DNA of 64,000 bases from Thioalkalivibrio sulfidiphilus (GTDB taxonomy: Bacteria > Pseudomonadota > Gammaproteobacteria > Ectothiorhodospirales > Ectothiorhodospiraceae): assembly GCF_000377945.1 (NCBI RefSeq), contig NZ_KB898934.1, positions 1 to 64,000 of the forward strand, in the 5' to 3' direction. The notes under the pieces are model-generated. The model had not been told where the DNA came from, ran no database searches, and saw only the letters and a list, made by a program, of their open reading frames with translations. Shown here in pieces: positions 370 to 64,000 of this stretch (position 1 is its first letter; each line of letters begins with the position of its first letter). The translations under genes were made by a program, and so were the position numbers.

Positions 370-555
370 TATTACAGGGGGGGTAGTGGCGGACACGGCC
401 CGCCCTATGGGACCTAACGCTTCGCCGATTCGCTCCGGGCGAATCGGTGTTCAACCCATCCATGGGCCTCACCCTTCGGGCTCCCTTCGGTCGCGCCGAT
501 TCGCTCCAGGCGAATCGGTCGAACCTGGCGCCAGGTTCTCATGCCGCACTCTCAA
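370..555. repeat. Gene-free stretch with short palindromic repeats
   Basis: No gene is seen. It holds GGCGGACACGGCCCGCC (388-404; a near copy lies at 34689-34710), two copies of GCCGATTCGCTCC-R-GGCGAATCGGT (424-448 and 495-519), each an inverted repeat with arms CCGATTCGC/GCGAATCGG, and a perfect 18-bp palindrome GAACCTGGCGCCAGGTTC (521-538). These look like REP-type extragenic palindromes. Apparent ORFs here run across the palindromes and the tRNA and are not credible. Confidence 0.6.
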
Positions 556-604
556 GCCAAATAAAAAAGGGGCCCGCTGTTCGCGAGCCCCTTTTTTATT
601 TGGC
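556..604 (-). terminator. Rho-independent terminator of tRNA-Gln
   Basis: A perfect 18-bp inverted repeat (556-573 with 587-604) with a GC core GGGGC/GCCCC and flanking A6/T6 tracts around a 13-nt loop. On the minus strand it follows the tRNA immediately, and its first four bases are the discriminator G and the CCA of the tRNA. The stem is symmetrical, so it could also stop plus-strand transcription from higBA. Confidence 0.85.
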
Positions 605-674
605 TGGGGGACCAGGATTCGAACCTGGGTTGACGGAGTCAGAGTCCGTAGTCCTACCGCTAGACGATCCCCCA
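601..674 (-). tRNA. tRNA-Gln (anticodon CTG)
   Basis: Read on the minus strand, the acceptor stem TGGGGGA pairs with TCCCCCA and is followed by discriminator G and an encoded CCA. The anticodon stem ACGGA/TCCGT encloses loop CTCTGAC, giving anticodon CUG, which reads CAG (Gln). The T arm contains GGTTCGAATCC. The UGGGG-type acceptor start is typical of bacterial tRNA-Gln. The terminator begins inside the 3' CCA end, so 3' maturation must trim from within the terminator stem. Confidence 0.95.
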
Positions 675-679
675 AGAAC

Positions 680-1105
680 AGTGGCTAGTGGCAAGTCTCA
701 AGTGGCTAGGACTGCTTACGATAGTGCTCAAGCAACCCGTGCAGCATTTTGGACAATTCGGTGGCTTCCTTCAAGTAAGCCCGGGCCGGTGTTTCGGGAA
801 GCAACTTGGCCCGAATCCCAATCATGAGTTGAGTTCTGAGCTCACCGCATGATCCCTTGGCCACCTTCAGGAACTGCACCCTCTCCCTGGATGAATCCCT
901 TTCGTATCCCTCAGCGATGTTTGAGGGAACGGACAGACCGGAACGCACCAACTGATCACTAAAGGACCTGTCCTTACATGTCTGCGTGCATTCGAATAAT
1001 GCAACAGACAAGGCGCAGGCCCTCTTCCAGACATCCAATGATTCGTACGAGTTCGCATCCATGCAGTCTCACTCCTTGAGACTTGCCACTTGCAACTTGC
1101 CACTG
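680..1105. repeat. Family-1 fold-back element carrying an S23-type ORF
   Basis: The left arm (680-708) and right arm (1075-1105) are complementary, sharing TGGCAAGTCTCAAG; both are strings of 7-nt units (GTGGCTA, GTGGCAA, GTCTCAA). The core between them is a single gene on the minus strand, the four-helix-bundle ORF, whose TAG stop lies inside the left arm (CTAG of GTGGCTAG) and whose start lies 13 bp inside the right arm. The same arm sequence recurs at seven other places in this window with short non-coding cores, so this copy looks like the cargo-bearing version of that family. Confidence 0.75.
706..1062 (-). CDS. S23/IVP-type four-helix-bundle protein (cargo of fold-back element)
   Basis: The product is 118 aa and matches the four-helix-bundle family first found as the ORF of 23S rRNA intervening sequences (bIVP/S23): N-terminal YESLDVWKRA, central FSDQLVRSGLSVPSNIAEGYER, then FLKVAKGSCGELRTQL and a C-terminal LLEHYRKQS. 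The family is all-helical and pentameric; the Avd accessory protein of diversity-generating retroelements has the same fold. Its biochemical role is unknown, though nucleic-acid binding is suspected. The ATG is preceded by AAGGAG at good spacing. It stands alone, minus strand, exactly between two arms of a family-1 fold-back repeat, and its stop codon lies in the arm. No rRNA gene is nearby. Confidence 0.85.
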   Translation of the reverse strand: MDANSYESLDVWKRACALSVALFECTQTCKDRSFSDQLVRSGLSVPSNIAEGYERDSSRERVQFLKVAKGSCGELRTQLMIGIRAKLLPETPARAYLKEATELSKMLHGLLEHYRKQS

Positions 1106-2055: not shown

Positions 2056-2172
2056 CAGTGGCAAGTAGCAAGTCTCAAGTGGCAAGGGAAAACATCCTCT
2101 CCATCCCCCGCTTTCGGGGGAGGATCGGGGGCACCTTGCCACTTGAGACTTGCCACTTGAGACTTGCCACTG
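2056..2172. repeat. Family-1 fold-back element in the rplM 5' region
   Basis: The left arm (2056-2087) and right arm (2134-2172) pair through CAGTGGCAAGT, CTCAAGTGGCAAGG and variants; the right arm has one extra 14-nt period. The 46-bp core contains a second hairpin, CCCCCGCTTTCGGGGG. The outer right boundary reads CCACTGCTTTT, like those of the copies near 10957 and 36637. The element would lie in the rplM-rpsI 5' UTR if the promoter near 2307 is the real one. Confidence 0.85.
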
Positions 2173-2312: not shown

Positions 2313-2471
2313 CAGGAATTTGATCGCAAAACCGGGGATCGGGGTTGGCGGGGACGAACGGCCTGTTTCGGGGGATGAGCGGCGCGCTGAGTGGCGTGGC
2401 GGCATGCCGCTGGAGCGAATCGGGGGTGGGCTGGGAGGTGGCGGCTGTTCGCGGCGGGGTCGCAGTTCAGG

Positions 2472-2605
<134 letters not shown>

Positions 2606-2608
<3 letters not shown>

Positions 2609-3744: not shown

Positions 3745-4998
3745 ATGAATCACAGGCTTAAAGACACTGATCGCTGCGTCATGTGCGGGCTGTGCCTGCC
3801 CCACTGCCCCACCTACGGCCTGAGCCGCCAGGAGGGGGATTCACCCCGGGGCCGAATCAGCCTGATGCAGGGGCTGGCCAGCGGACGGCTGCAGGCGGAC
3901 GACAAGGTGACCGGCCACCTGGACGGCTGCCTGGAATGCCGGTCCTGCGAATCGGTGTGCCCGTCCGGCGTACCCTTCGGGCGGCTGATGGACGAGGCGC
4001 GCGCCCTGTTGCGGGAACAGCGCCCGGACCGCCCCGAACTGCCCGGCATCGCCCGACCGATGCTGCGCGGCGACGCCACGGGCCGGTTCATGGCGGGACT
4101 TCTGCACACCGGGCAGCGCCTGGGGCTCCCGGGGGCACTGGGGCATCTGCCGGGTGTGTCCGGCAAGGCGTCGGCCCGCGCCCTGGCATTGCTGCCCCGC
4201 CAGGCCACCCCGACTGCGCCTCGCGGCACGCACACGCCCGCCGGGGAGTCCCTCGGCACGGTGCAGTTGTTCATCGGCTGCACCGGCAACGCCTTCGAGG
4301 GCAGGTCGCTGGCGGCCGCCCGGGACCTGCTGCTGGCCCTGGGTTACCGGGTGGAGGTGCCGAGGGCACAGGGCTGCTGCGGGGCCCTTGACCTGCATGC
4401 AGGCAAGCCGGAGGCCGCCCGGCGACTGGCGGCAGGCAATCTCGCCGCCTTCGGCGCGTCGGATGTGCCCGTCATCAGCCTAAACAGCGGCTGCCGGACC
4501 CAACTCAGGGAATACGAGGCGCTGATCCCGGAGGGCGCGGCGCTGGCGGGCCGGGTGCGGGACCTGTACGGATTCCTGATGGAGCACGAGGAGCGGCTGT
4601 TCGGCGAGCAAGGTTTAATTCGCCCGATGCCCCCCGAGAGCAGGACCATGCGGGTGGCGGTGCACCTGCCCTGCACCCTGCGCAACGTGCTCAGGGAGCA
4701 GGGAGCGATGCTCGCCCTGCTCAGGCGCGTGCCGGGGCTGGAAGTGGTGGAGCTGGAGGGCAACGAACGCTGTTGCGGGGCCGCCGGGGCCCATATGTTC
4801 ACCCACCCGGAGACCGCCGACGCCCTGCTCTCGCCCAAGATCGAGGCGGTCCGGCGCCAGGCGCCGGAGGCCATCATCACGGCCAACATCGGTTGCAGCC
4901 TGCATTTCCAGGCGGGTCTGCGTCGGGCGGGGCTTGAGGTGCCGGTGATGACGCCGGCGGAGTGGCTTGTCAGCCAGTGGCAAGTCTCAAGTGGCTAG
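3745..4998 (+). CDS. glcF: GlcF-type iron-sulfur subunit (two [4Fe-4S] plus two CCG domains)
   Basis: The 417-aa product has two ferredoxin-type motifs, CVMCGLCLPHCP and CLECRSCESVCP (residues 11-75). Two cysteine-rich CCG domains follow, with QGCCGALDLHAGKPEAA near 210 and NERCCGAAGAHMFTHPE near 345. This matches the Fe-S subunit of glycolate oxidase, which passes electrons to quinone; in an autotroph it would serve phosphoglycolate salvage. No glcD/glcE lies adjacent, so another flavoprotein partner is possible. The last seven codons (QWQVSSG and stop) are family-1 repeat sequence, so the native C-terminus has been replaced. Confidence 0.8.
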   Translation: MNHRLKDTDRCVMCGLCLPHCPTYGLSRQEGDSPRGRISLMQGLASGRLQADDKVTGHLDGCLECRSCESVCPSGVPFGRLMDEARALLREQRPDRPELPGIARPMLRGDATGRFMAGLLHTGQRLGLPGALGHLPGVSGKASARALALLPRQATPTAPRGTHTPAGESLGTVQLFIGCTGNAFEGRSLAAARDLLLALGYRVEVPRAQGCCGALDLHAGKPEAARRLAAGNLAAFGASDVPVISLNSGCRTQLREYEALIPEGAALAGRVRDLYGFLMEHEERLFGEQGLIRPMPPESRTMRVAVHLPCTLRNVLREQGAMLALLRRVPGLEVVELEGNERCCGAAGAHMFTHPETADALLSPKIEAVRRQAPEAIITANIGCSLHFQAGLRRAGLEVPVMTPAEWLVSQWQVSSG

Positions 4999-5048
4999 TG
5001 GCAAGGGAAAGCCTTCGACCTTCCTTGCCACTAGCCACTTGAGACTTG
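4975..5048. repeat. Family-1 fold-back element fused to the glcF 3' end
   Basis: The 26-bp arms 4981-5006 and 5023-5048 are perfectly complementary (CAAGTCTCAAGTGGCTAGTG and on) around a 16-nt loop. The left arm is read as the C-terminal codons and TAG stop of glcF; the right arm ends 13 bp before the coq7 ATG. In mRNA it would be a long hairpin that could act as a terminator or RNase III site. Confidence 0.95.
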
Positions 5049-6690: not shown

Positions 6691-6874
6691 CTAGCCCGCA
6701 TATCTCACCACCCTTCTACTGCGGCCGCCGATATGCGCGCTGTGACGGGGCGTGCTCCCTGCAGCCGGCTTGACGTAGTGTCGGCTACGCCTGCGCCGTC
6801 TTCCGCTCCGCGCGCCCCGTCACAGCGGCATCTCGACGCCCTCGCTACGAACGGTGGTGAGATATGCGGGCTAG
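6691..6874. mobile_element. MITE-like element with 22-bp CTAG-ended inverted repeats
   Basis: Perfect 22-bp terminal inverted repeats (6691-6712 and 6853-6874) begin CTAGCCCGCATATCTCA. The 140-bp interior holds a second inverted repeat (CGCTGTGACGGGGCG with CGCCCCGTCACAGCG) and no gene. The right terminus supplies the TAG stop of the VOC gene. A second element with the same termini but an unrelated interior lies at 34279-34540. The size and lack of an ORF fit a miniature inverted-repeat transposable element; no transposase is in the window. Confidence 0.8.
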
Positions 6875-8539: not shown

Positions 8540-8550
8540 TCCAACAACAT

Positions 8551-8714
8551 CTGCCGCAGAGGCGCGGAGTCGCAGAGAAAAAGATAACGATTGGACAGGA
8601 TTTACATGATTAACAGGATTGAAAAAACCTTCACAGGGTCCTGATCAATAATCATGTCAATCATGTAAATCCTGTCGAGTTTGTTTTCCTCCGCGTCTCC
8701 GCGCCTCTGCGGCA
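8551..8714. repeat. Family-4 fold-back element, copy 1 (crp/trpC)
   Basis: The outer arms (8551-8583, CCGCAGAGGCGCGGAGTCGC and on; 8687-8714) are complementary and built of 8-nt units. Inside lies a second inverted pair, GGACAGGATTTACATGATTA (8593-8612) with TAAATCCTGTCGAG near 8675. It sits at the convergent 3' ends of crp and trpC. A copy of the same length with about six mismatches over 159 bp lies on the other side of trpC. Confidence 0.92.
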
Positions 8715-8726
8715 AATCCTTCTTCC

Positions 8727-9524
8727 CTACCCGAACAACTCCGCCAAACGCGCTCCCGGATCCGAAGCCCGCATGAAGGCCTCGCCCACCAGGAAGGCGT
8801 GCACGCCGGCGTTGCGCATGCGCGCCACATCATCCCGGGTGTGAATCCCGCTCTCAGTCACCACCAGCCGGTCCGGCGGTATCATTTCCAGCAGGTCCAG
8901 GGTCGTTTCCAGGCGCGTCTCGAAGCTGCGCAGGTTGCGGTTGTTGATGCCGATCAGCCGGGCGTCGAGTTTGAGCGCCCGCTCCAGTTCCTCGCGGTCA
9001 TGGACCTCGATGAGCGCATTCATGCCCAGCTCGTGGGTCAGCGCGAGCAGGTCGCGCAATTGCACATCTTCCAGGGCGGAGACGATCAGCAGCACGCAGT
9101 CCGCACCCATCACCCGGGCCTCGTAGACCTGGTAGGGGTCGATGATGAAGTCCTTGCGCAGCACCGGCAGGCCGCAGGCGGCCCGGGCGTCCTCCAGATA
9201 GGCCTCACTGCCCTGGAAGAAGTCGTGGTCGGTGAGCACCGAGAGGCAGGCGGCGCCGCCTGCCTCGTAGCGCTTCGCGATGGCCTCGGGATCGAAATCC
9301 TCGCGCAGCAGGCCTTTGCTGGGGCTGGCCTTCTTGATCTCGGCGATCACCGCGGCCTGCCCGGCATGGATCTTCGCCTCCATCGCACCGAGAAAGGGAC
9401 GCACGGCGGGAGCGGCATCGACGAAGCGGCGCAGATCCTCCAGAGAGGTGCGCGCACTGCGTTCGGCGATCTCCTCGCGCTTGCGGGCGAGGATCTTGGT
9501 CAGGATGTCGGTGTTGTTGGTCAT
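8727..9524 (-). CDS. trpC: Indole-3-glycerol phosphate synthase
   Basis: The 265-aa TIM-barrel enzyme converts CdRP to indole-3-glycerol phosphate. Catalytic signatures are [14 protein letters not shown] (Lys at the end of strand 1), [35 protein letters not shown], the [13 protein letters not shown] motif and [13 protein letters not shown]. It is monofunctional, without a fused TrpF. It is the last gene of the minus-strand trp cluster, separated from trpD by a family-4 element. The two near-identical family-4 copies bracket this gene closely. Confidence 0.97.
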
Positions 9525-9546
9525 GGGGATTCCGCAATTTAAAGAT

Positions 9547-9711
9547 TGCTGCAGAGGCGCGGAGTCGCAGAGAAAAGGATAACGAATGGACAGGATTTAC
9601 ATGATTAACAGGATTGAAAAAACCTTCACAGGTTCCTGATCAATCATCATGTCAATCATGTAAATCCTGTCGAGTTTGTTTTCCTCTGCGACTCCGCGCC
9701 TCTGCGGCAGA
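9547..9711. repeat. Family-4 fold-back element, copy 2 (trpC/trpD)
   Basis: Collinear with the copy at 8551-8714 at an exact offset of 995 bp: same outer arms (GCAGAGGCGCGGAGTCGCAG), same nested GGACAGGATTTACATGATTA pair and same spacing. The high identity implies recent duplication or gene conversion. It separates trpD from trpC. Confidence 0.92.
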
Positions 9712-9722
9712 TGTTGCCGTTT

Positions 9723-10739: not shown

Positions 10740-10811
10740 GGTGTCGGGCGTCTCTCGAATCGTGTGTGGTTCAGGCCGGATTCTCCGGACCACCGCCGCG
10801 GGGGTCAATAG

Positions 10812-10957
10812 AAGTGGCAAGTGGCAAGTGGCAAGTGGAAAGTGGCAAGTGGCAAGTGGCAAGTGGCAAGTGGCAAGTGGCAAGTAAGAGCATAAAAATC
10901 CCGGTCTCCGATGCAAACGGGGTTCCTTGCCACTTGAGACTAGCCACTAGCCACTGC
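10812..10957. repeat. Family-1 fold-back element between trpG and trpD
   Basis: The left arm is ten tandem AAGTGGC units (10812-10881; unit four reads AAGTGGA). The right arm (10923-10957) is the mixed type, TTGCCACTTGAGACTAGCCA and on. The core is about 40 bp. The right arm is translated as the last residues and stop of TrpG. The unequal arms show that unit number can expand on one side only. Confidence 0.92.
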
Positions 10958-11549: not shown

Positions 11550-12030
11550 TCGACGCAAAGGCGCGAAGGCGCAAAGGGCCGCAAAATGTTTTGGAATTAA
11601 AGGCCGTTAACCACTCGGCGGATACCCTGCCGGAGCCTTGGTGCATTGAAATTGATCAGCAGGCCCAGTCGACAACCACTCAAGCGCAGATACGAAAGCA
11701 GTTGCGCGGAATGCAATGGCTGTAGCACTTCCACTGCCTTCAGCTCCAACACAAGCTTGCCTTCAACCAGCATATCGAGTCGATAGGCCGCGTCGAAAGA
11801 AATGCCTTTGTAACTGGCCTGCAGCGCGACCTCGGATTCATGGCCTATACCACGCAACGCCAATTCACGACTCAGAGCCTGGCAATAGACAGACTCCAAC
11901 AAGCCAGCCCCGAGCACCCGGTGCACCTCGATGGCGGCACCTACCACCACATACGACAACGCGTTCTCATCCATAAGTTCGCCCTCGTTTCTTTGCGATC
12001 CTTCGCGTCTTTGCGACTTTGCGTCGAATG
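11550..12030. repeat. Family-5 fold-back element carrying a GxxExxY ORF
   Basis: The left arm (11550-11594, CGACGCAAAGGCGCGAAGGC and on) is complementary to the right arm (11987-12030, ending TTTGCGACTTTGCGTCG); both consist of 8-9-nt GCAAAG units. The core is one minus-strand gene, the GxxExxY ORF, which fills it almost exactly. Two other family-5 copies in the window (22605-22698 and 31627-31745) have short non-coding cores. It interrupts trpE-trpG. Confidence 0.85.
11597..11974 (-). CDS. GxxExxY protein (cargo of fold-back element)
   Basis: The 125-aa product has the family signature VLGAGLLESVYCQAL at residues 21-35, plus LDMLVEGKLVLELKAVEVLQPLHSAQLLSYLRLSG and GLLINFN, which give the family a PD-(D/E)xK nuclease-like look (Asp...Glu-x-Lys in the LVLELKAVE segment). 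The nuclease reading is inference; the family has no established function. It sits exactly between the arms of a family-5 repeat inside the trp operon and has no relation to tryptophan synthesis. Its start has only a weak GAGG upstream. Confidence 0.88.
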   Translation of the reverse strand: MDENALSYVVVGAAIEVHRVLGAGLLESVYCQALSRELALRGIGHESEVALQASYKGISFDAAYRLDMLVEGKLVLELKAVEVLQPLHSAQLLSYLRLSGCRLGLLINFNAPRLRQGIRRVVNGL

Positions 12031-15710: not shown

Positions 15711-16360
15711 AAAAGTCAAAGGCTTCCGATCCCCGTTGCACGGGGCTCGGGTTACTTTTCTTGCTTGTCCAAGAAAAGTAACCAAAAGAAGGACACCCCG
15801 ATGCCGCACCCGCTGTTCGCGGGTACCCTGCGTTGCTCGGCTTCGAGGGGGTCGCCTGACAGGCCGTCCCTGGCCTGGCAGGCGACGCGCCGCTTCCCTG
15901 CGGCGCCCCTTCGGGCTTTTTCCCTCGAAGCCTGCGCTACTCGGTGCGGCATAAGGGGCAGACAGGTCAAAACCGCTTCGATCTGCTTTGGGTTTTCCTG
16001 GTAGGAGCCCCGACCCCGGGGCGAATGATGGGAAATTCGCCCCGGGGTCGGGGCTCCTACAAAACCAGGCAAGGCAACCCAGCTTGTGGAGGTTGCTGCC
16101 TTTGACGTTCTCCCCCCGTTTTTCTCGCCGAGCACGGGGGTGTTCCGGGGTCAAAGCCCGATAGGGGCGCCGCAAGGATGCGGCGCGTCGGCTGCCAGGC
16201 CATGGACGGCCTGTCAGCCGACCTCCCCGGAACACCCCCGCGCGCAGGGCACCCCGCAGGGGCGAGAAACCCGGGTGTCTTTTCTTTGGTTACTTTCTTT
16301 GGACAAGCAAAGAAAGTAACCCGAGCCCCGTGCAACGGGGATCGGAAGCCTTTGACTTTT
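15711..16360. repeat. 650-bp long inverted-repeat island
   Basis: The outer arms (about 15711-15795 and 16270-16360) are nearly perfect complements beginning AAAAGTCAAAGGCTTCCGAT. Each arm contains its own hairpin, GGTTACTTTTCTT...AAGAAAAGTAACC. The interior has further inverted repeats: a 26-bp perfect pair at 16001-16060, and two larger GC-rich palindromic blocks (15825-15955 and 16120-16265) containing GACAGGCCGTCCCTGGCCTG-like and ACAGGCCGTCCATGG-like sequences in opposite orientation. ORFs through it follow the symmetry, occur on both strands and are not credible genes. It fills the CopD-cytochrome interval. Similar GTTACTTTCTTTG-type repeats are, to my knowledge, widespread in gammaproteobacterial intergenic DNA. 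Confidence 0.85.
16001..16060. repeat. Perfect 26-bp inverted repeat nested in the island
   Basis: GTAGGAGCCCCGACCCCGGG and on (16001-16026) pairs perfectly with 16035-16060 across an 8-nt loop. The GTAGGAGC...GCTCCTAC ends resemble REP-like repeats common in Xanthomonadales and pseudomonads, here inserted at the centre of the larger inverted repeat. Confidence 0.85.
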
Positions 16361-17677: not shown

Positions 17678-18265
17678 TCACTCCCGCACGGCCAGGGCCA
17701 CGGTGTAGTCCTTGCCCTGCTTGAGCTTGTCGTAGTTGCCGAACACCTCCTTGAAGCCCCGCTCGATGAAGCGGCGCAGGCCGGTGATGGTCACCACGTA
17801 CAGGCGGCCACCGGGATGCAGGTGCTCGAAGGCGTCGTAGAGATACAGATAGAGCATCTCCTTGCCCACCTTGGCCGGCAGGTTGGAGGTGATGACCTGG
17901 AAACGGCGATCCCCCACGGCGCTGAAGCCATTGCTCAGGAAGGCCTCGGCGTTGCCGATGCCATTGATGCGGGCGTTCTTGTTGCTGTAGTCCACGGCCA
18001 CGAAGTCCTTGTCCACCAGGCAGGTGCGCCCCCTGGGCGCCAGGCGCGCCAGGGTCAGGCCGATGGGGCCGTAGCCGCAGCCCAGGTCCAGGCAGTCATC
18101 GGCCTCACCGACCTCCACGTGGTCCAGCAGCAGGCGCGTGCCGGCGTCGATGCCCCGGGGGGAGAACAGGCCCCAGGTGGTGTGGAAGGTGAGCGGCTGG
18201 CCGCACAGGGTGTCGCTGAAGACGATGTCCTCGCGCAGGCTTGCGATGTATTCGGGGGAAGGCAT
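17678..18265 (-). CDS. RsmC-like class I SAM-dependent methyltransferase
   Basis: The 195-aa protein matches the C-terminal methyltransferase domain of RsmC-type 16S rRNA guanine-N2 methyltransferases: GLFSPRGIDAGTRLLL, motif I DLGCGYGPIGLTLA, the acidic loop VDKDFVAVDYSNKNA and SNLPAKVGKEM at the catalytic NPP(F/Y) position. The Leu-Pro-Ala variation in motif IV differs from the usual NPPF, so target or activity may differ. The start codon abuts a family-3 repeat arm that has replaced its upstream region. Confidence 0.85.
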   Translation of the reverse strand: MPSPEYIASLREDIVFSDTLCGQPLTFHTTWGLFSPRGIDAGTRLLLDHVEVGEADDCLDLGCGYGPIGLTLARLAPRGRTCLVDKDFVAVDYSNKNARINGIGNAEAFLSNGFSAVGDRRFQVITSNLPAKVGKEMLYLYLYDAFEHLHPGGRLYVVTITGLRRFIERGFKEVFGNYDKLKQGKDYTVALAVRE

Positions 18266-18344
18266 AATTCAAAATTCAAGATTCAACATTCAAGGGCGGA
18301 AGGATCATACCACCCCTTGAATCTTGAATATTGAATCTTGAATT
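18265..18344. repeat. Family-3 fold-back element (AAGATTC units)
   Basis: The left arm (18265-18296, AATTCAAAATTCAAGATTCA and on) and right arm (18312-18344, CCTTGAATCTTGAATATTGA and on) are complementary strings of 7-nt units AAGATTC, AAAATTC and AACATTC. The 15-nt core is non-coding. It lies between purK and the methyltransferase; its AT-rich arms contrast with the GC-rich surroundings. Confidence 0.92.
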
Positions 18345-18350
18345 CGCCCT

Positions 18351-19472
18351 TCAAAGCGCCCCGAAGATCGCTTCGGCCTCGGCGATCACGCGCTCCAGGT
18401 CATCGCCCAGCACGCAGAAATGCCCCATCTTGCGCCCTGGGCGGGCCTCCGCCTTGCCGTAGAGGTGCAGCTTGGCCGCGGGGTGAGTGAACAGGGCCGA
18501 CCAGTCCGGCTCACCGTCTGCCCAGAGGTCTCCCAGCAGGTTGACCATCACCACCGGGCTCAGCAGCCGCGTGTCGCCGAAGGGCAGGCCGCAGATGGCA
18601 CGCACCTGTTGCTCGAACTGGGAGGTGACGCAGGCATCCAGGGTGTAGTGGCCGCTGTTGTGGGGGCGCGGCGCGATCTCGTTGACCAGCAGCTCGCCGG
18701 CGGTGGTGATGAAGAACTCCACCGCCATGAGACCGCAGTAGTCGAGGCCCTCGGCGATCCGGATGGCCGCCTCCCGGGCCGCACGGGCCTGGGCCTCGGT
18801 GACCCGGGCGGGCACGATGCTCATGTGCAGGATGCCGCCCCGGTGGATGTTTTCGGCCACGGGATAACAGACCGTGGCGCCGTCCGTGCCCCGGGCCAGC
18901 ACCACGGAGATCTCCATGGCCAGGTCCACCCGGTGTTCCAGCACGCAGGGCACCCCGCCCAGGGCCTCGAAGGCCTGACGGGCCGCCGCCGGGGAGTCCA
19001 CCGGGATCTGGCCCTTGCCGTCATAGCCGAAGGCGGCGCGCTTGAGGATCGCCGGTCCGCCCACCCTGGCAAACGCGGCCTCGGCCTCGTCGGCGCTGGT
19101 CACCACCTCGAAGGCCGCCGTGGCGAGTCCCAGGGAGCGGATGAAGGTCTTCTCGCGACCGCGATCCTGGGTGTGCAGGAGCGAGCCGGCCGCCGGGCGT
19201 ACCGGGACCTTGCGCGCCAGGGTCTCCAGGGTCTGGGCGGGGATGTTCTCGAACTCGGTGGTCACCACCGCGCAGCGAACGGCCATCTGCTCCAGGGCCC
19301 AGGCATCGCCGTAGGCGGCATGCAGGTGTTCATCGGCCATGCGGCCGGCGGGACTGCCGGTGTCCGGATCCAGCACCAGCACCCGGTAGCCCAGGGTGCG
19401 GGCGGCCACGGTGAACATGCGGCCCAGCTGGCCGCCGCCCAGCATGCCAAGGGTCTGGCCGGGCAGGATCAC
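18351..19472 (-). CDS. purK: N5-carboxyaminoimidazole ribonucleotide synthase
   Basis: The 374-aa ATP-grasp enzyme carboxylates AIR with bicarbonate and ATP. The start is GTG in [20 protein letters not shown], overlapping the purE stop by 4 bp (GTGA). ATP-grasp features include [29 protein letters not shown] and [26 protein letters not shown]. Translational coupling supports equal expression with PurE, which uses its unstable product. Confidence 0.97.
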
Positions 19473-19969: not shown

Positions 19970-20015
19970 GTTGGCAAAAAACCAGGGTGGACAATCGCCT
20001 AGGATAAACCAAATT

Positions 20016-20121
20016 TGAAGGGGGAAGTACGAATTGGGATGTTGGAAGGGGCTCACTTCGCACTTCCCAATTCCTCCTTCCCCCTTCCACCCCCCACTTC
20101 CCAATTCACACTTCGCACTTC
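20016..20121. repeat. Family-6 fold-back element in the purE/purC divergent region
   Basis: The left arm (20016-20051, TGAAGGGGGAAGTACGAATT and on) and the longer right arm (20054-20121, ending CACACTTCGCACTTCA) are built of GAAGTGN and GAATTGGG units. Arm lengths are unequal (about 36 and 68 bp), as in the heptamer-expanded family-1 copies. It occupies most of the purE-purC spacer. Confidence 0.85.
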
Positions 20122-20160
20122 AAAATGGCCGCGAAATCAAGCCTAAGGTCGCCATAGCCG

Positions 20161-21051
20161 ATGTCCCAGCCGCTCCTTCAAAGCCACCTGACCTCCCTCC
20201 CCCTGATCCACCGGGGTAAGGTCCGCGACCTCTATGCCGTGGGCGAGGATCACCTGCTGATCGTCACCACCGACCGGATCTCCGCCTTCGACGTGATCCT
20301 GCCCACGCCCATCCCGGGCAAGGGCGAGGTGCTGACGAAGATCTCCGAGTTCTGGTTTCGCAAGCTTGAGCACATCGTGCCCAACCAGCTGGCGGACATG
20401 AGCCTCGCCGAGGCAGTCCCCGATGCCGCCGAACGCGCCCCCCTGGAGGGACGCAGCCTGGTGGTCAAGCGCCTCAAGGCCCTGCCCATCGAGGCGGTGG
20501 TGCGCGGCTATCTCATCGGCTCCGGCTGGAAGGACTACCAGAAGACCGGCCAGGTGTGCGGCAACCCCTTGCCTGCGGGTCTGCAGCTGGCTGACAGGCT
20601 GCCGCAGCCCATCTACACCCCGTCCACCAAGGCGGCGGTGGGGGATCACGACGAGAACGTGGACTTCGACTACACCGCCGAGCTGGTGGGCCCGGAGCTG
20701 GCCGCCCAGGTGCGCCAGACGGCGCTCGCCCTGTACAAGGCCGCCGCCGAGTACGCCCTTGAGCGCGGCATCATCATCGCCGACACCAAGTTCGAGTTCG
20801 GCCTGGACGACGAGGGCGTGCTGCACCTGATCGACGAGGCCCTGACCCCGGACTCCTCCCGTTTCTGGCCCGCCGACACCTACCGACCCGGCATCAGCCC
20901 GCCCTCCTTCGACAAGCAGTTCGTGCGCGACTACCTGGAGACCCTGGACTGGAACAAGCAGGCCCCGGGACCGGAACTGCCGCCGGAGGTGGTGCAGAAG
21001 ACCACCGAGAAATACCGCGAGGCGCTGTTGCGGCTTACTGGGGCAAGCTGA
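20161..21051 (+). CDS. purC: SAICAR synthetase
   Basis: The 296-aa enzyme joins CAIR with aspartate. It belongs to the longer PurC subtype: [41 protein letters not shown] at the N-terminus, then [31 protein letters not shown] and [19 protein letters not shown]. It is divergent from purE-purK. Its TGA stop is the first triplet of a family-3 repeat arm (TGATTCAAAATTC). Confidence 0.97.
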
Positions 21052-21168
21052 TTCAAAATTCAAGATTCAAAATTCAAAGGGGGAACCACCGCGATGCGAC
21101 AACCGATGCCCAGCCGAACAGACGCTTTTCCCTTTGAATTTTGAATTTTGAATTTTGAATTTTGAATG
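21048..21168. repeat. Family-3 fold-back element bridging purC stop and bioD start
   Basis: The left arm (21048-21084) begins at the purC stop; the right arm (21128-21168) is four TTTTGAA-type units ending GAATG, which supplies the bioD ATG. The core is 43 bp and GC-rich. The element fills the whole purC-bioD gap, touching both coding regions. Confidence 0.95.
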
Positions 21169-21846
21169 TCTCTAAACGGCTACTTCGTCACCGGCACAGA
21201 CACCGGCATCGGCAAGACGGTCCTCTCCTGCGCGCTGATTCGGGCCCTGCGTGAAGGCGGATACACCGTCACACCGCGCAAACCGGTGGAATCCGGTTGC
21301 GAGGTCCGCGACGGACAGCTCTTCCCGGCAGACGGTACCGCCCTGCGCGAAGCGGCGGGCGCACCCTTCCCGGACCTGGACCGCGTCACCCCCTATCGTT
21401 TCTCCCACGCCCTCGCGCCCGACCGGGCAGCCCGCCTGGCCGGCGCAACGCTGCACATCGAACAGCTGAGACAGGCCTGTCTCGCGGATGCAAATCAGGA
21501 CGCCCTGCTGGTGGTGGAAGGCGCCGGGGGTTTCTATTCGCCGCTCGCCGAGGACGGCCTGAATGCCGATCTGGCCGAGGCCCTGGGGCTGCCCGTGGTG
21601 CTGGTGGCGCCGGACCGGCTGGGGACCATGAACCACGTGCTGCTCACCGCCGAGGCCATCGCCCGGCGCGGCCTGCGCCTCGCGCTGGTGGTGCTGAACG
21701 CAGTGGAGACCGAACAGCGCGAGGGAATGGACAACCGGTCGGACCTGGCACGGCATCTCGATTGCCCGATCCTCGGCTTTCCGCGGGTGAAGCGGACGGG
21801 AGACGGCTGGGAAATCCTGGCCGGCTGGCTTCGCGACGGTGCGTAG
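21166..21846 (+). CDS. bioD: Dethiobiotin synthetase
   Basis: The 226-aa enzyme carboxylates and cyclises DAPA to dethiobiotin. The P-loop is FVTGTDTGIGKTVLSCALI; KPVESGC carries the substrate-binding Lys, and VVEGAGGFYSPLAEDGLNADLAE the second Mg site. The ATG is the last three bases of a family-3 repeat arm, with no Shine-Dalgarno in the AT-rich arm, so initiation is likely weak or coupled to purC. No other bio gene is adjacent. Confidence 0.95.
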   Translation: MSLNGYFVTGTDTGIGKTVLSCALIRALREGGYTVTPRKPVESGCEVRDGQLFPADGTALREAAGAPFPDLDRVTPYRFSHALAPDRAARLAGATLHIEQLRQACLADANQDALLVVEGAGGFYSPLAEDGLNADLAEALGLPVVLVAPDRLGTMNHVLLTAEAIARRGLRLALVVLNAVETEQREGMDNRSDLARHLDCPILGFPRVKRTGDGWEILAGWLRDGA

Positions 21847-22604: not shown

Positions 22605-22698
22605 GCCTTCAACGCAAAGGCGCAAAGACGCAGAGAACGCAAAAGATCAGGATTTTTTCATCAAAACCTTTGCGCCTTTGCGCCTTTGCGTTGAAGGC
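22605..22698. repeat. Family-5 fold-back element with short core
   Basis: The outer 22 bp (GCCTTCAACGCAAAGGCGCA from 22605) are the perfect complement of the right end (to 22698). Units are GCAAAGGC, GCAAAGAC and GCAGAGAAC. The core is only about 17 nt, in contrast to the GxxExxY-bearing family-5 copy at 11550-12030. Confidence 0.93.
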
Positions 22699-31626: not shown

Positions 31627-31745
31627 TAACTGCGACGCAAAGGCGCGAAGACGCGAAGTAACGCAAAGGTTTTTTGGTTTTAAAACACAAAGATTTACTT
31701 TGCGGGCCTTTGCGTCTTCGCGCCTTTGCGTCGCGGTTTGCAGTT
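31627..31745. repeat. Family-5 fold-back element between metK and the SAH riboswitch
   Basis: The left arm (31627-31668, AACTGCGACGCAAAGGCGCG and on) and right arm (31698-31745, ending TCGCGGTTTGCAGTT) are complementary. Units are GCGAAGAC and GCAAAGG. The core is about 30 bp and AT-rich. It lies 8 bp past the metK stop and 51 bp before the riboswitch, so it may act as the metK 3' hairpin. Confidence 0.92.
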
Positions 31746-31796
31746 CACAGACGATCTTGAAGTACCCGCGGACAAGTAGCCGCGGTTTGTTACGTG

Positions 31797-31874
31797 TCGA
31801 GGAGCGCTGCAGCGGGTTTCAGCCCCGTCAGGCTCGGCACGGCGCAACAACCGTAGTAACGGCGCTCATCCGAC
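31797..31874 (+). promoter_or_regulatory. S-adenosylhomocysteine (SAH) riboswitch
   Basis: The conserved core is present in order: CGAGGAGCGCTGC at 31798-31810, CAGGCTCGG at 31829-31837 and AACGGCGCTCATC at 31859-31871. GAGC/GCTC and the pseudoknot-forming segments are in place. It ends 18 bp before the ahcY start. In known cases SAH binding turns on expression of ahcY, relieving SAH inhibition of methyltransferases. The position directly upstream of ahcY-metF is the textbook context. Confidence 0.93.
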
Positions 31875-33421: not shown

Positions 33422-34282
33422 ATGAAATCCCAGAAAGCATACGAGAAAGTATTCAGCTTCGAGTTCTTCCCGCCCAAGACCGACGAGGGCGCGGAGAAAC
33501 TGCGCAAGGCCCGAGAGGCCCTGGCCGAACTGAAACCCAAGTTCTTCTCCGTCACCTACGGCGCCGGCGGTTCGACCCAGGCGCGCACCCTGGACACGGT
33601 GCTGGAGATCCAGCGCGATGCCCGCTTCGAGGCGGCACCGCACCTCTCCTGCATCGGTTCCACGCGGGAGCATATCCGCGAGATCCTGGACCTGTATCGC
33701 AACAACGGCATCCGCCACATCGTCGCCCTGCGCGGCGACATGCCATCGGGCATGCGCGGCGAGCCGGGCGAGCTGCGCTACGCCAACGAACTGGTGGAAT
33801 TCATCCGGCAGGAGACCGGCGATCACTTCTTCATCGAGGTGGCCGCCTACCCGGAGATGCATCCCCAGGCACCCAGCTACGAAAAGGACCTGGAGAACTT
33901 CAAGCGCAAGGTGGATGCAGGCGCCGATTCGGCCATCACCCAGTACTTCTACAACGCCGATGCCTATTACCACTTCGTAGACAGCTGCGAGAAGATGGGC
34001 GTGACCCTACCCATCGTGCCCGGCATCATGCCCATCACCAACTACACCCAGCTGGCGCGCTTCTCGGACGCCTGCGGTGCCGACATTCCGCGCTGGATCC
34101 GCAAGCGCCTGGAAGGTTTCGGTGATGACACTGCCGCCATCCGGGCCTTCGGCGAGGACGTGGTGACCCGCTTGTGCGAGAAACTGCTGGAGGCCGGGGC
34201 GCCAGGCCTGCACTTCTACACCATGAACCAGGCCGGCCCGACCCTGGCGATTTGGAACAACCTGGGCCTCGGCGGACGCTAG
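33422..34282 (+). CDS. metF: 5,10-methylenetetrahydrofolate reductase
   Basis: The 286-aa FAD enzyme supplies methyl-THF for methionine synthesis. Motifs are KVFSFEFFPPKTDEG, FFSVTYGAGGSTQARTLDTV, HLSCIGSTREHIREIL, HIVALRGDMP and VEVAAYPEMHPQAPS-like. The ATG at 33422 starts MKSQKAYEKVFS; the frame upstream overlaps ahcY and is not used. The TAG stop lies in the CTAG end of a MITE-like element, so the last residues LGLGGR abut the insertion. Confidence 0.97.
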   Translation: MKSQKAYEKVFSFEFFPPKTDEGAEKLRKAREALAELKPKFFSVTYGAGGSTQARTLDTVLEIQRDARFEAAPHLSCIGSTREHIREILDLYRNNGIRHIVALRGDMPSGMRGEPGELRYANELVEFIRQETGDHFFIEVAAYPEMHPQAPSYEKDLENFKRKVDAGADSAITQYFYNADAYYHFVDSCEKMGVTLPIVPGIMPITNYTQLARFSDACGADIPRWIRKRLEGFGDDTAAIRAFGEDVVTRLCEKLLEAGAPGLHFYTMNQAGPTLAIWNNLGLGGR

Positions 34283-34540
34283 CCCGCATATCTCATCGGG
34301 ATCGCGGGAGCAGGCGAAGGATTCGTGCCCGTAGGCGCCGCTCTGGAGCGAAACTCATAGCCGTAGCTATGGGTTGAGTGAAGAGCAAGCCTACGGGCGC
34401 GAAGACGAGCCTGAACCGCGATAGGACTCCGGCGGGAACAGTCTGTCATGCTGAGGTTGGCGACCATTTCAACGTATTCCAGTTATATATCAACCTGTTG
34501 CGCGCCCGCCGGTGTCCGACCGGTGAGATATGCGGGCTAG
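34279..34540. mobile_element. MITE-like element, second copy with unrelated interior
   Basis: The terminal inverted repeats 34279-34299 and 34520-34540 match at 20 of 21 positions and share CTAGCCCGCATATCTCA with the element at 6691-6874. The interior differs completely and contains its own inverted repeats, GCCCGTAGGC...GCCTACGGGC and CTCATAGCCGTAGCTATGGG. No ORF is credible. The left end supplies the metF stop codon. Confidence 0.8.
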
Positions 34541-34570
34541 TGTCCTGAATCATCCGGTCGACCAGGCAGC

Positions 34571-35775: not shown

Positions 35776-36516
35776 ATGTTCATGCGAACCACACGCCTGT
35801 ACCTGAACCAGTCCCTCGCCGTCGGCCAGACCATTGACCTGGACGAACGGGCTCACCGGCATGTGGTGCAGGTGTTGCGCCTGCGTCCCGGCGCGGAACT
35901 CGTGCTGTTCAACGGCCAGGGCGGCGAATACCGGGCCAGCCTGAGCGAGGCCCAGAAACGCCACTCGAGCGTGACACTGACCGGATTCGACCCGGCAACC
36001 ACGCGTCCGCGTCTCAACGTTACCCTGGTGCAGGGCATCTCCAAGGGGGACCGCATGGACTACAGCCTGCAGAAGGCCACGGAACTGGGGGTGAGCAGGA
36101 TCCAGCCGGTGCTCACCCAGCGCAGCCAGACACCGGGTGATCCCCGGCGCCTGGAGAACCGCATGGAACACTGGCGCGGCGTGGTGATCAGCGCCTGCGA
36201 ACAATGCGGACGCAACGAGCTGCCCGAGCTGGGCTCGGTGATGTCATTCCAGGAATGGCTGGGAAGCCCGCCAGACCACGGCCTGGGCCTGGTCCTGGAC
36301 CCGCGCGCGGACACCGGCCTGCCCGGACTTGCACCGCCCGAAGGAGCGGTCAGTCTGCTGATCGGACCCGAGGGCGGACTGGACGAGACGGAGATCCAGG
36401 CCGCCCGGCACCGGGGCTTCACCCCGGTGCGCCTGGGCCCGAGGATCCTGCGCACGGAGACCGCCGGGGTGGCGGCACTGGCGGTGATTCAGGGGATCTG
36501 GGGGGATTTGAGGTAA
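35776..36516 (+). CDS. rsmE: 16S rRNA m3U1498 methyltransferase
   Basis: The 246-aa SPOUT enzyme has an N-terminal PUA-like domain (RTTRLYLNQSLAVGQTIDLDERAHRHVVQVLRL) and a C-terminal trefoil knot with VSLLIGPEGGLDETEIQAA and VRLGPRILRTETAGVAALAV. QGISKGDRMDYSLQKATELGV is also conserved. The start may be ATG at 35776 or two codons later. The TAA stop overlaps the beginning of a family-1 fold-back arm (AAGTGGC). Confidence 0.96.
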   Translation: MFMRTTRLYLNQSLAVGQTIDLDERAHRHVVQVLRLRPGAELVLFNGQGGEYRASLSEAQKRHSSVTLTGFDPATTRPRLNVTLVQGISKGDRMDYSLQKATELGVSRIQPVLTQRSQTPGDPRRLENRMEHWRGVVISACEQCGRNELPELGSVMSFQEWLGSPPDHGLGLVLDPRADTGLPGLAPPEGAVSLLIGPEGGLDETEIQAARHRGFTPVRLGPRILRTETAGVAALAVIQGIWGDLR

Positions 36517-36638
36517 GTGGCAAGTCTCAAGTGGCTAGTAGCAAGGGAAACCACCGCATTTCTCCCTCTCCCACAGGGAGAGGGTCGGGGTGAGGGTGGT
36601 GTTGCCTTGCTACTAGCCACTTGAGACTTGCCACTGCT
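36515..36638. repeat. Family-1 fold-back element between rsmE and chpC
   Basis: The 30-bp arms 36517-36546 and 36605-36634 are perfectly complementary (GTGGCAAGTCTCAAGTGGCT and on). The core holds CTCCCTCTCCCACAGGGAGA and GGGTCGGGGTGAGGG between ACCACC/GGTGGT. The outer right end CCACTGCTTT matches the copies near 2172 and 10957. It lies between convergent genes. Confidence 0.95.
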
Positions 36639-49451: not shown

Positions 49452-49510
49452 AGAAGAGACAAGAGACAAGTGGTCACACTTGCCTCTTGTCTCTTGTATC
49501 TTGTATCTGT
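49450..49510. repeat. Family-2 fold-back element with a minimal core
   Basis: The left arm AAGAAGAGACAAGAGACAAG (49450-49469) and longer right arm (49478-49510, CACTTGCCTCTTGTCTCTTG and on) leave a loop of only about 8 nt. The left arm abuts the stop of the NusG-II gene; the right arm runs to the GTG start of the Gx-transporter gene. Confidence 0.9.
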
Positions 49511-50021
49511 GCTTATATCGACCACCCGCGAAGACCACCTGATCGCCTGGCTGGCGGCCCTGGCCATTGCCATCCATGTGCTGGAGGCGGCGCTGCCAAG
49601 CCCGATCCCCGGGGTCAAACCCGGGCTCGCCAACGTGATCACGGTGCTGGCCCTGCTGCTCTACGGCTGGCGGGTGGCGGTCTGGGTCTCGCTGCTGCGG
49701 GTACTGGCCGGCAGCCTGCTGGTGGGCAGCTTCCTCAGCCCCACCTTCCTGCTGAGTCTGACCGGCGCCCTGGCTAGCCTGGCGGCCCTGGGTCTGGCCA
49801 CGGCCGTCGCGGGCCGGCACCTGAGCGCCCTGGGGCTGTGCGTGCTCGCCGCCCTGGCGCACATGCTGGGCCAGTTCCTGGTGGCCTACACCCTGATCAT
49901 CCCTCACCCGGCCCTGCTCAAGCTGTTGCCCGTTCTGCTCACCGCCGCACTGCTGTTCGGGCTGGCAAGCGGTACAATTGCACGCATGATGTATCCGCAA
50001 CGCCCGCCCGCCGCCCCATGA
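49509..50021 (+). CDS. Gx transporter / heptaprenyl diphosphate synthase component I-like membrane protein
   Basis: The 170-aa protein has about five membrane segments and the family motif SPIPGVKPGLANVITVLALLLYGWR, followed by SLLRVLAGSLLVGSFLSPTFLLSL. It resembles ECF S-components (PF07456). GTG at 49509 (MLISTTREDHLIAW) is preferred; the frame remains open into the repeat arm and an earlier GTG there would add repeat-encoded residues (VTLASCLLYLVS). It overlaps tonB by 4 bp. With ApbE it may handle flavin or quinone precursors; this is inference. Confidence 0.8.
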   Translation: MLISTTREDHLIAWLAALAIAIHVLEAALPSPIPGVKPGLANVITVLALLLYGWRVAVWVSLLRVLAGSLLVGSFLSPTFLLSLTGALASLAALGLATAVAGRHLSALGLCVLAALAHMLGQFLVAYTLIIPHPALLKLLPVLLTAALLFGLASGTIARMMYPQRPPAAP

Positions 50022-54831: not shown

Positions 54832-54960
54832 GCTTGCCGCAGAGACGCAGAGGCGCAGAGAAAAACATGTTTGGGTAAATGCGGCGGGGCACAGCAGCGG
54901 ATGAACCGACTTTTCCAGTCTGCGGCAGTTCTCCGCGCCTCAGCGTCTCTGCGGCAAACC
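54832..54960. repeat. Family-4 fold-back element between pyrC' and the PyrK-like gene
   Basis: The left arm (54832-54865, GCTTGCCGCAGAGACGCAGA and on) and right arm (54929-54960, ending GTCTCTGCGGCAAACC) are complementary with 8-nt units CGCAGAGG and CGCAGAGA. The 63-bp core differs completely from the family-4 copies flanking trpC, so only arms are conserved between distant copies. Confidence 0.92.
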
Positions 54961-57182: not shown

Positions 57183-57298
57183 TCAGTCTCAAGTGGCAAG
57201 TCTCAAGTGGCAAGGAAAGTCGCAATAATGACTGCCTCAGGCAAAGGACCGGGATGAAGATGATTTCCTTGCCACTTGAGACTAGCCACTAGCCACTA
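57183..57298. repeat. Family-1 fold-back element between the two PilU-like genes
   Basis: The left arm (57183-57218, TCAGTCTCAAGTGGCAAGTC and on) and right arm (57264-57298, TTTCCTTGCCACTTGAGACT and on) are complementary; the right end CACTA follows the pilU2 TAA directly. The core is 45 bp and non-coding. It splits two cotranscribed genes. Confidence 0.92.
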
Positions 57299-63782: not shown

Positions 63783-63830
63783 CGGCCCCATAAAAAAAGC
63801 CCGGCAATGCCGGGCTTTTTTATGGGGCCG
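63783..63830. terminator. Bidirectional intrinsic terminator after the HU gene
   Basis: CGGCCCCATAAAAAAAGCCC and on pairs with its complement over about 22 bp; the core GCCCGGC-AAT-GCCGGGC is flanked by A7 and T6. It starts 8 bp past the HU stop. Confidence 0.93.
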
Positions 63831-63832
63831 AA

Positions 63833-63919
63833 GGCCAGAGACAAGATGCAAGATACAAGATACAAGAAAAATCCGACTGCCTCTTACTTGTCTCTTGTCT
63901 CTTGTCTCTTGCCTCTGGC
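63833..63919. repeat. Family-2 fold-back element at the right end
   Basis: The left arm (63833-63870, GCCAGAGACAAGATGCAAGA and on) and right arm (63880-63919, ending CTTGCCTCTGGC) are complementary with 7-nt units AAGAGAC, AAGATAC and AAGATGC. The loop is about 9 nt. The right arm is translated as the tail of the truncated minus-strand gene. Confidence 0.93.
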
Positions 63920-64000
63920 GCCTTCCTCAATCTTGAGCTTGGTCCTAATGTACACCGGGTGCGGCACGTACAGCAGGTCCGCGATCTTGCGCACCGTGTA
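63884..64000 (-). CDS. C-terminus of an unidentified protein (partial)
   Basis: Only 38 codons and a stop are visible; the gene enters from the right edge. The readable segment is YTVRKIADLLYVPHPVYIRT followed by KLKIEEGA. The last ten residues (RGKRQETRDK) and the TAA are encoded by a family-2 repeat arm, so the original C-terminus was overwritten or extended. I do not recognise the family from this fragment; the frame is set by the uninterrupted reading from the window edge and could be confirmed only with upstream sequence. Confidence 0.5.
   Translation of the reverse strand, partial: YTVRKIADLLYVPHPVYIRTKLKIEEGARGKRQETRDK

Follow-up and report, generated by a model that had tools for sequence, protein, structure and literature searches.

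The S23-type gene beside tRNA-Gln in Thioalkalivibrio sulfidiphilus lies in a fold-back element with heptanucleotide arms that is found in many bacterial phyla

Introduction

The locus considered here raises the question of why a gene of the 23S rRNA intervening sequence (S23) type should lie between complementary arms outside of any rRNA. The original prediction, made from the sequence alone, was that the gene is the cargo of a fold-back element, that the intervening sequences (IVSs) of rRNA and such intergenic elements are forms of one element type, and that the structural link of the protein to Avd of diversity-generating retroelements (DGRs) makes a nucleic-acid role plausible. IVS inserts have been described as an extended stem-loop replacing a small loop; in Coxiella, RNase III excises the IVS from the RNA of the host, and where rRNA IVSs come from has been regarded as unclear ever since they were discovered (PMC4990558). 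In many bacterial genomes heptanucleotides make up the commonest class of repeats, and their cause is not known (as cited in PMC4679880). The STRR heptanucleotides of cyanobacteria also have a unit length of 7.

Results

The S23 element of the window

The window, by which we mean the whole stretch of 64,000 nucleotides that was analysed, carries the S23 gene close to its start (Table 1). The protein matched both PF05635 (102.6 bits, cut-off 33.8) and TIGR02436 (103.9 bits). Both arms are built of 7-nt units (AGTGGCA, AGTCTCA), and their top ungapped pairing joins 680-702 with 1075-1097 over 23 nt that are 91% complementary, with a lag-7 identity of 0.81. The predicted placement of the ORF between complementary arms, with its stop codon in one of them, held, except that "exactly between" is better put as between the arms with the stop inside one: the TAG stop (706-708) is inside arm 1, and the ORF starts 12 nt from the inner edge of the other arm. 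The predicted RNA fold of the coding strand (-176.1 kcal/mol, z = -4.9) has the arms paired at its base, and none of 100 shuffles was equally stable. S23 is the sole gene of the element, which has tRNA-Gln (601-674) on one side and on the other an ORF (1128-1520) which we take, from its sequence, to be rpsI. None of 56 other window ORFs (greedy set) scored as heptad-flanked; the S23 ORF had been displaced from this set by an overlapping longer frame and, scored apart, was positive. The element encodes no transposase, and no target-site duplication was recognised at the aligned sites. A viral origin of the gene was considered and rejected, since no relative was found in viral contigs (single query).

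Table 1. Positions of the S23 element, the gene-less heptad hairpins and the PDDEXK_3 gene in the window
Feature	Position	Strand	Remarks
Arm 1 of fold-back element	680..710	+	AGTGGC/AAGTCTC heptads, "AG" strand; contains S23 stop codon
S23 (23S-rRNA-intervening-sequence type) four-helix-bundle gene, 118 aa	706..1062	-	PF05635, TIGR02436, AlphaFold model
Arm 2 of fold-back element	1074..1105	+	CTTGAGA/CTTGCCA, complement of arm 1; RNA fold
Cargo-less heptad hairpin	2056..2172	.	Hairpin also present in sister species G044 (96% identical), both arms made of other heptads
Cargo-less heptad hairpin	2468..2608	.	(TAGTGGC)n
Cargo-less heptad hairpin	4981..5048	.	26-nt perfect arms
Cargo-less heptad hairpin	10808..10955	.	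(AAGTGGC)n; G044 has ~1.2 kb of other, gene-like sequence there
PDDEXK_3 (PF13366, GxxExxY-type) gene	11612-11962	-	Between arms 11550-11585 and 11992-12027, CGCAAAGG-like units
Cargo-less heptad hairpin	18258..18352	.	(ATTCAAG)n
Cargo-less heptad hairpin	20014..20124	.	GAAGTGG type
Cargo-less heptad hairpin	21049..21172	.	(ATTCAAA)n
Cargo-less heptad hairpin	36516..36635	.	AAGTGGC/AAGTCTC
Cargo-less heptad hairpin	49454..49511	.	ACAAGAG type
Cargo-less heptad hairpin	57185..57290	.	AAGTGGC/AAGTCTC
Cargo-less heptad hairpin	63824..63923	.	(ACAAGAT)n

Heptad arms accompany S23 genes across phyla

The flank survey of S23 genes that had been proposed with the prediction was run on a multi-phylum set of 80 S23 loci, fetched by protein and blind to their flanks, of which 77 were scored. 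A strict heptad fold-back test, combining an arm score, a best period of 7 and a lag-7 identity of at least 0.45, was passed by 52/77 of these loci and by 27/29 in an independent gammaproteobacterial set (79/106 pooled). Only 3/628 other ORFs of the same loci passed it, two of the three being S23 paralogues, as did 8/1677 random positions. The outcome that would have refuted the prediction, namely that most homologues lack such arms, was thus not met, and cargo status is supported; the word "cargo" may even understate S23, which is possibly the working part of the element. In a test that does without arm alignment, the flank inverted-repeat score lay above the 99th percentile of same-locus controls at 49/77 loci. 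The remaining 25/77 multi-phylum loci failed the strict test and can be rescued only by eye: most of them, uncounted, show heptad-like arrays or a period of 8 (L080) or 9 (L050, L068).

Lag-7 identity of the aligned arms was 0.73, compared with 0.22-0.29 for other lags, the harmonic 14 excepted. Unsupervised phase alignment of 87 arms gave the grammar NNNYRGN, with A (74%) or G (23%) at position 5 and G (94%) at position 6; it scored 271 against a maximum of 202 for column-shuffled arms. The 5' arm had more G than C in 73/87 cases and more C than G in 9/87.

General heptad richness was ruled out as a cause beyond the window genus by sampling genomes with and without S23. In Gammaproteobacteria outside the genus, heptad arrays elsewhere in the genome numbered one in 240 kb where S23 was present and one in 333 kb where it was absent. 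Since heptad arrays are so rare elsewhere in S23-positive genomes, the arms are part of the S23 element and not of a repeat background, and we consider it very likely that S23 and its heptad arms are one element. S23 is the gene carried inside a fold-back insertion element that occurs in many bacterial phyla, usually intergenic and often within operons. Its distribution is patchy (55/276 gammaproteobacterial genomes), and pattern matching found at least 556 S23/IVP relatives in one species-level genome collection. Where both neighbours were co-directional, S23 was in sense orientation in 31 cases and antisense in 5 (p = 1.3e-5), a bias that selection might also explain; co-direction with the upstream gene alone (43/57 against a background of 64%) was not significant (p = 0.10). 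A search of the open-access literature found no link between S23 and heptad arms, which is weak evidence of novelty since unrelated hits swamped part of it.

At one locus of another family (L146), S23 lies between a tRNA gene and an apparent rpsI, as it does in the window, which may mean that the site is old and shared or that insertion there happened more than once.

S23 loci and gene-less hairpins in the genus

The window genome has four S23 genes, all between complementary heptad arms and with four different heptads: AAGTGGC at the window locus, and ATTCAAG, GGAGTTA and GAAGTGG at the other three, which lie between sucC and sucD, rfbB and rfbA, and mnhB and mnhC (names that we take from the translations of the neighbouring genes). 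Among 47 genomes of the family, S23 matches above the cut-off were confined to the five genomes of the window genus, where 18/19 tested loci were heptad-flanked; the single failure (L024) has an assembly gap in its flank. Weak PF05635 hits in other genera (L009-L011, L016) had no heptad arms. Two of these Avd-like hits, L011 and L016 from a related genus, were seen beside apparent DGR variable repeats.

The claim that such arms recur without cargo held as well. About 11 compact gene-less hairpins with arms of the S23-element kind, the window S23's own arm family among them, occur in the window (Table 1), which contains 15 arrays of period 7 and at most one of every other period from 4 to 13. 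At one of the hairpins (10808-10955) the longer sequence of the sister species means that a deletion apparently ended at the hairpin. The genus is unusual in having many cargo-less heptad copies: heptad arrays number 10-23 per 100 kb, whereas four relatives without S23 had none in 240 kb. The genome-wide counts rest on samples. Both heptads and S23 are limited to a single genus of the family, so that this comparison alone is phylogenetically confounded.

Insertion, replacement and selection

An empty site was recognised between sucC and sucD, where 14 genomes of other genera have no insertion and the two genes are 0-70 bp apart (junctions read). No call could be made for rfbB-S23-rfbA since the relatives were too diverged to align. 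When two sister species of the genus, G043 and G045, were compared at sucC-sucD, the flanks were ~98-100% identical and the arms and gene only 54-82%, with the limits of the divergence at the arms; the element has therefore been replaced as a unit in one of the two. At the tRNA-Gln site of the same pair the arms are identical and the difference is mainly inside S23, which means that exchange can be partial, although this difference might also be the result of ordinary recombination. In G042 (Thioalkalivibrio denitrificans, identical to record L026), the tRNA-Gln and mnhBC sites have other heptads in both arms, yet each S23 is nearest to its counterparts (55-58% identity). The turnover of arms and gene is faster than that of the genes on either side. 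Three S23 sites are common to all five species, which implies that movement within the genus is slow. The pn/ps of S23 was mostly 0.1-0.3 (higher, at 0.4-0.5, for the two genes of G042), so that the protein is kept functional by purifying selection.

By the tRNA-Gln gene, G044 was seen to have an extra 169-nt segment (window 420-620 and L155), a partial duplicate of the tRNA and terminator region, and a similar tRNA fragment is present in the other members of the genus.

S23 inserts in 23S rRNA

Inserts with both S23 and heptad arms were found in helix 45 of 23S rRNA at two loci, L012 (in G042) and L151. The tip of helix 45 reads ACTTACACTTTGTGTAAGT in the sister species G044, and in G042 it is replaced by heptad arms and an S23 gene. 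L151 has arms of the CAGAAGA type, and its S23 frame is broken by two stops. The heptad arms of both loci support the prediction that rRNA IVSs and intergenic elements are one type; with only two cases, both of which fit, we regard this as likely. The window element shares with an IVS the S23 (23S_rRNA_IVP) protein that it encodes and a stem formed from complementary ends, but unlike L012 and L151 it lies outside any 23S rRNA helix. Being intergenic, it is not filed as an IVS, only as what is likely the same type of element.

Like the helix 45 type of IVS (e.g. Coxiella burnetii, PMC4990558), the element has an S23/IVP gene in the loop and complementary terminal arms, and a hairpin is where the host RNA is interrupted. 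It differs in that the window copy and nearly all other S23 copies are intergenic, and the heptad make-up of the arms is absent from the description in PMC4990558.

The S23 fold, Avd and reverse transcriptase

The AlphaFold model of the window S23 (pLDDT 95.5) was closest among solved folds to 2gsc (Z 19.8) and 2rld (Z 17.1), followed by Avd of DGR ribonucleoproteins (Z 14.2-14.5; VIA-align). Both 2gsc and 2rld have five chains, and the paper on 2gsc is cited in PMC10053308 for an assembly of five four-helix bundles. Against 4dwl (Avd) the model gave a TM of 0.75-0.78 and met the criterion for an Avd-like four-helix bundle; the best Z for Avd is barely above that of unrelated helical bundles (13.7). 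The predicted structural link of S23 to Avd is thus supported by structure comparison, and their homology is stated in PMC10053308, but a nucleic-acid role remains an inference without binding data.

No reverse transcriptase was found beside the window S23; the sole RVT_1 match of the genome is on another contig (C28, the window being on C14). Of the 55 S23-positive gammaproteobacterial genomes, 29, some of them finished, lack RVT_1 (PF00078), and the association across 276 genomes was not significant (p = 0.17). The S23 elements therefore do not seem to require a reverse transcriptase in the genome. The likeness to DGR Avd (4dwl, 8ub7) is in the four-helix-bundle fold and in relatives that form pentamers, whereas the S23 gene has no adjacent reverse transcriptase or template/variable repeats and the Avd-like weak hits have no heptad arms.

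A second gene family with its own arms

The window also has a PDDEXK_3 gene between inverted arms (Table 1). Such arms were present at 23/25 gammaproteobacterial PF13366 loci with full flanks, a count made without separate controls for this family. Their units (e.g. CACAGAG, CGCAAAT, CACGAAG) are spaced by 8-10 and show no period-7 signal (lag-7 identity 0.26). The arm type goes with the gene type, and this second, gene-specific arm family points to a pairing of arm type with protein. Gene-less hairpins of the PF13366 arm type were observed at 22605-22698, 31628-31738 and 54834-54957.

Discussion

We propose that the arms, once transcribed, would pair to give a long hairpin whose loop holds the S23 message. 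RNase III would cut the insert from the host RNA, as for rRNA IVSs, and this excision would make the insertion tolerable to the host. The S23 protein, a pentamer in solved relatives, may bind the 7-nt repeats in the hairpin of its own element, either as RNA or as single-stranded DNA, and may assist in bringing the element, or a copy of it, to further hairpin or loop sites. The gene-less hairpins would then be non-autonomous copies mobilised in trans, and they would reach high numbers only in lineages like this genus. The making of new DNA copies is the least certain step, and seemingly would not require a genomic reverse transcriptase. Since the mechanism is inferred and no transposition, binding or excision has been observed, we favour this explanation as a whole only by a modest margin, and a role of S23 itself in binding and mobility, likewise inferred, could as readily prove wrong as right.

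The least improbable of the alternatives, though still unlikely, is that S23 is a host regulator, an RNA-binding protein which regulates its own mRNA via the flanking hairpin, with the cargo-less hairpins as its regulon and the gene kept for the benefit of the host. Purifying selection on S23, the persistence of three sites across the five species of the genus, the sense orientation in operons and the presence of hairpins between co-transcribed genes would all agree with this. However, heptad hairpins other than those of S23 are almost absent from most S23-positive genomes, which leaves the protein without a regulon, S23 is patchy among Gammaproteobacteria, and copies within rRNA and at unrelated sites suggest mobility. 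We hold it to be very unlikely that the element is a retroelement in which an Avd-like S23 works with a trans-acting reverse transcriptase that reverse-transcribes the RNA of the hairpin at new sites. The fold shared with Avd, the sense bias and the rRNA insertion sites speak for it; the many S23-positive genomes without RVT_1, the absence of heptad arms at the DGR-type weak hits (L009-L011, L016) and an alignment score for Avd little better than that for unrelated bundles speak against it.

Two passive readings fare no better. In one, hairpins give rise to heptad arrays by slippage and template-switch copying, and S23 genes merely tend to adjoin the arrays. Heptanucleotide repeats are indeed common in bacteria (cited in PMC4679880), and hairpin-templated repair could keep the arm copies complementary, but other genes of the same loci are not flanked (about 1/626), such arms are seldom seen at other places in most S23-positive genomes, and PF13366, another small gene family, has a different arm type; this hitchhiking is already disfavoured and is highly improbable. 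The other holds that the arms serve only to insulate the operon from the inserted gene, as terminators or RNase III sites, that the function of S23 is unrelated, and that the gene is spread by ordinary recombination and horizontal transfer. It can draw on the stable predicted hairpin, on the RNase III excision of the Coxiella IVS (PMC4990558) and on the allele replacement inside S23 at the tRNA-Gln site, but it leaves unexplained why a unit length of 7 with one grammar is found across phyla, and likewise the arm type of PF13366. It too is very doubtful.

The fold-back element that we prefer can be compared with other repeats. It resembles REP/REPIN sequences with RAYT transposases and MITEs in that these are short dispersed intergenic palindromes, many without cargo, but it differs from them in having no transposase or observed target duplication and in having variable heptad arrays as arms in place of conserved termini. 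A dependence on RAYT was considered, but Y1_Tnp is ubiquitous and hence uninformative: it is present in 43/47 genomes of the family, heptad-free genera included, and is equally frequent there. The TAACTGA heptamers of Beggiatoaceae, cyanobacteria and Bacteroidetes (PMC4679880) share the unit length of 7, and their reverse complement TCAGTTA fits NNNYRGN; they differ in being direct repeats for which complementary arms are not the rule, and S23 is unmentioned in PMC4679880.

A bolder reading, which we put forward only as a possibility, would assign rRNA IVSs, the S23 elements between genes and many heptanucleotide repeats that still lack an explanation, as forms or relics, to a single pan-bacterial class of transposase-free mobile elements, in which a pentameric S23 would read a 7-nt NNNYRGN ruler and swap one hairpin for another; GxxExxY-type PDDEXK_3 genes would form a second class with an arm code of their own. 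The link of S23/IVP genes, rRNA IVSs and heptanucleotide repeats by one architecture and arm grammar turns several old puzzles into a single question of binding and mobility.

Other features of the window

A MITE-like insertion of ~180 bp at 6691-6874 has inverted ends CTAGCCCGCATATCTCACC...GGTGAGATATGCGGGCTAG with CTAG at both ends; it is absent from the sister species G044, which has a clean empty site, and a second copy lies at 34274-34545. Two hairpins ~1 kb apart at 8545-9716 have common nested arms (CGCAGAGGCGCGGAG, GACAGGATTTACATGATTAACAGGAT), and the first of them differs in G044. A long imperfect inverted repeat at 15711-16360 has 88-nt arms 474 nt apart with nested palindromes within. 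An SAH riboswitch was detected at 31793-31874 (63.7 bits).
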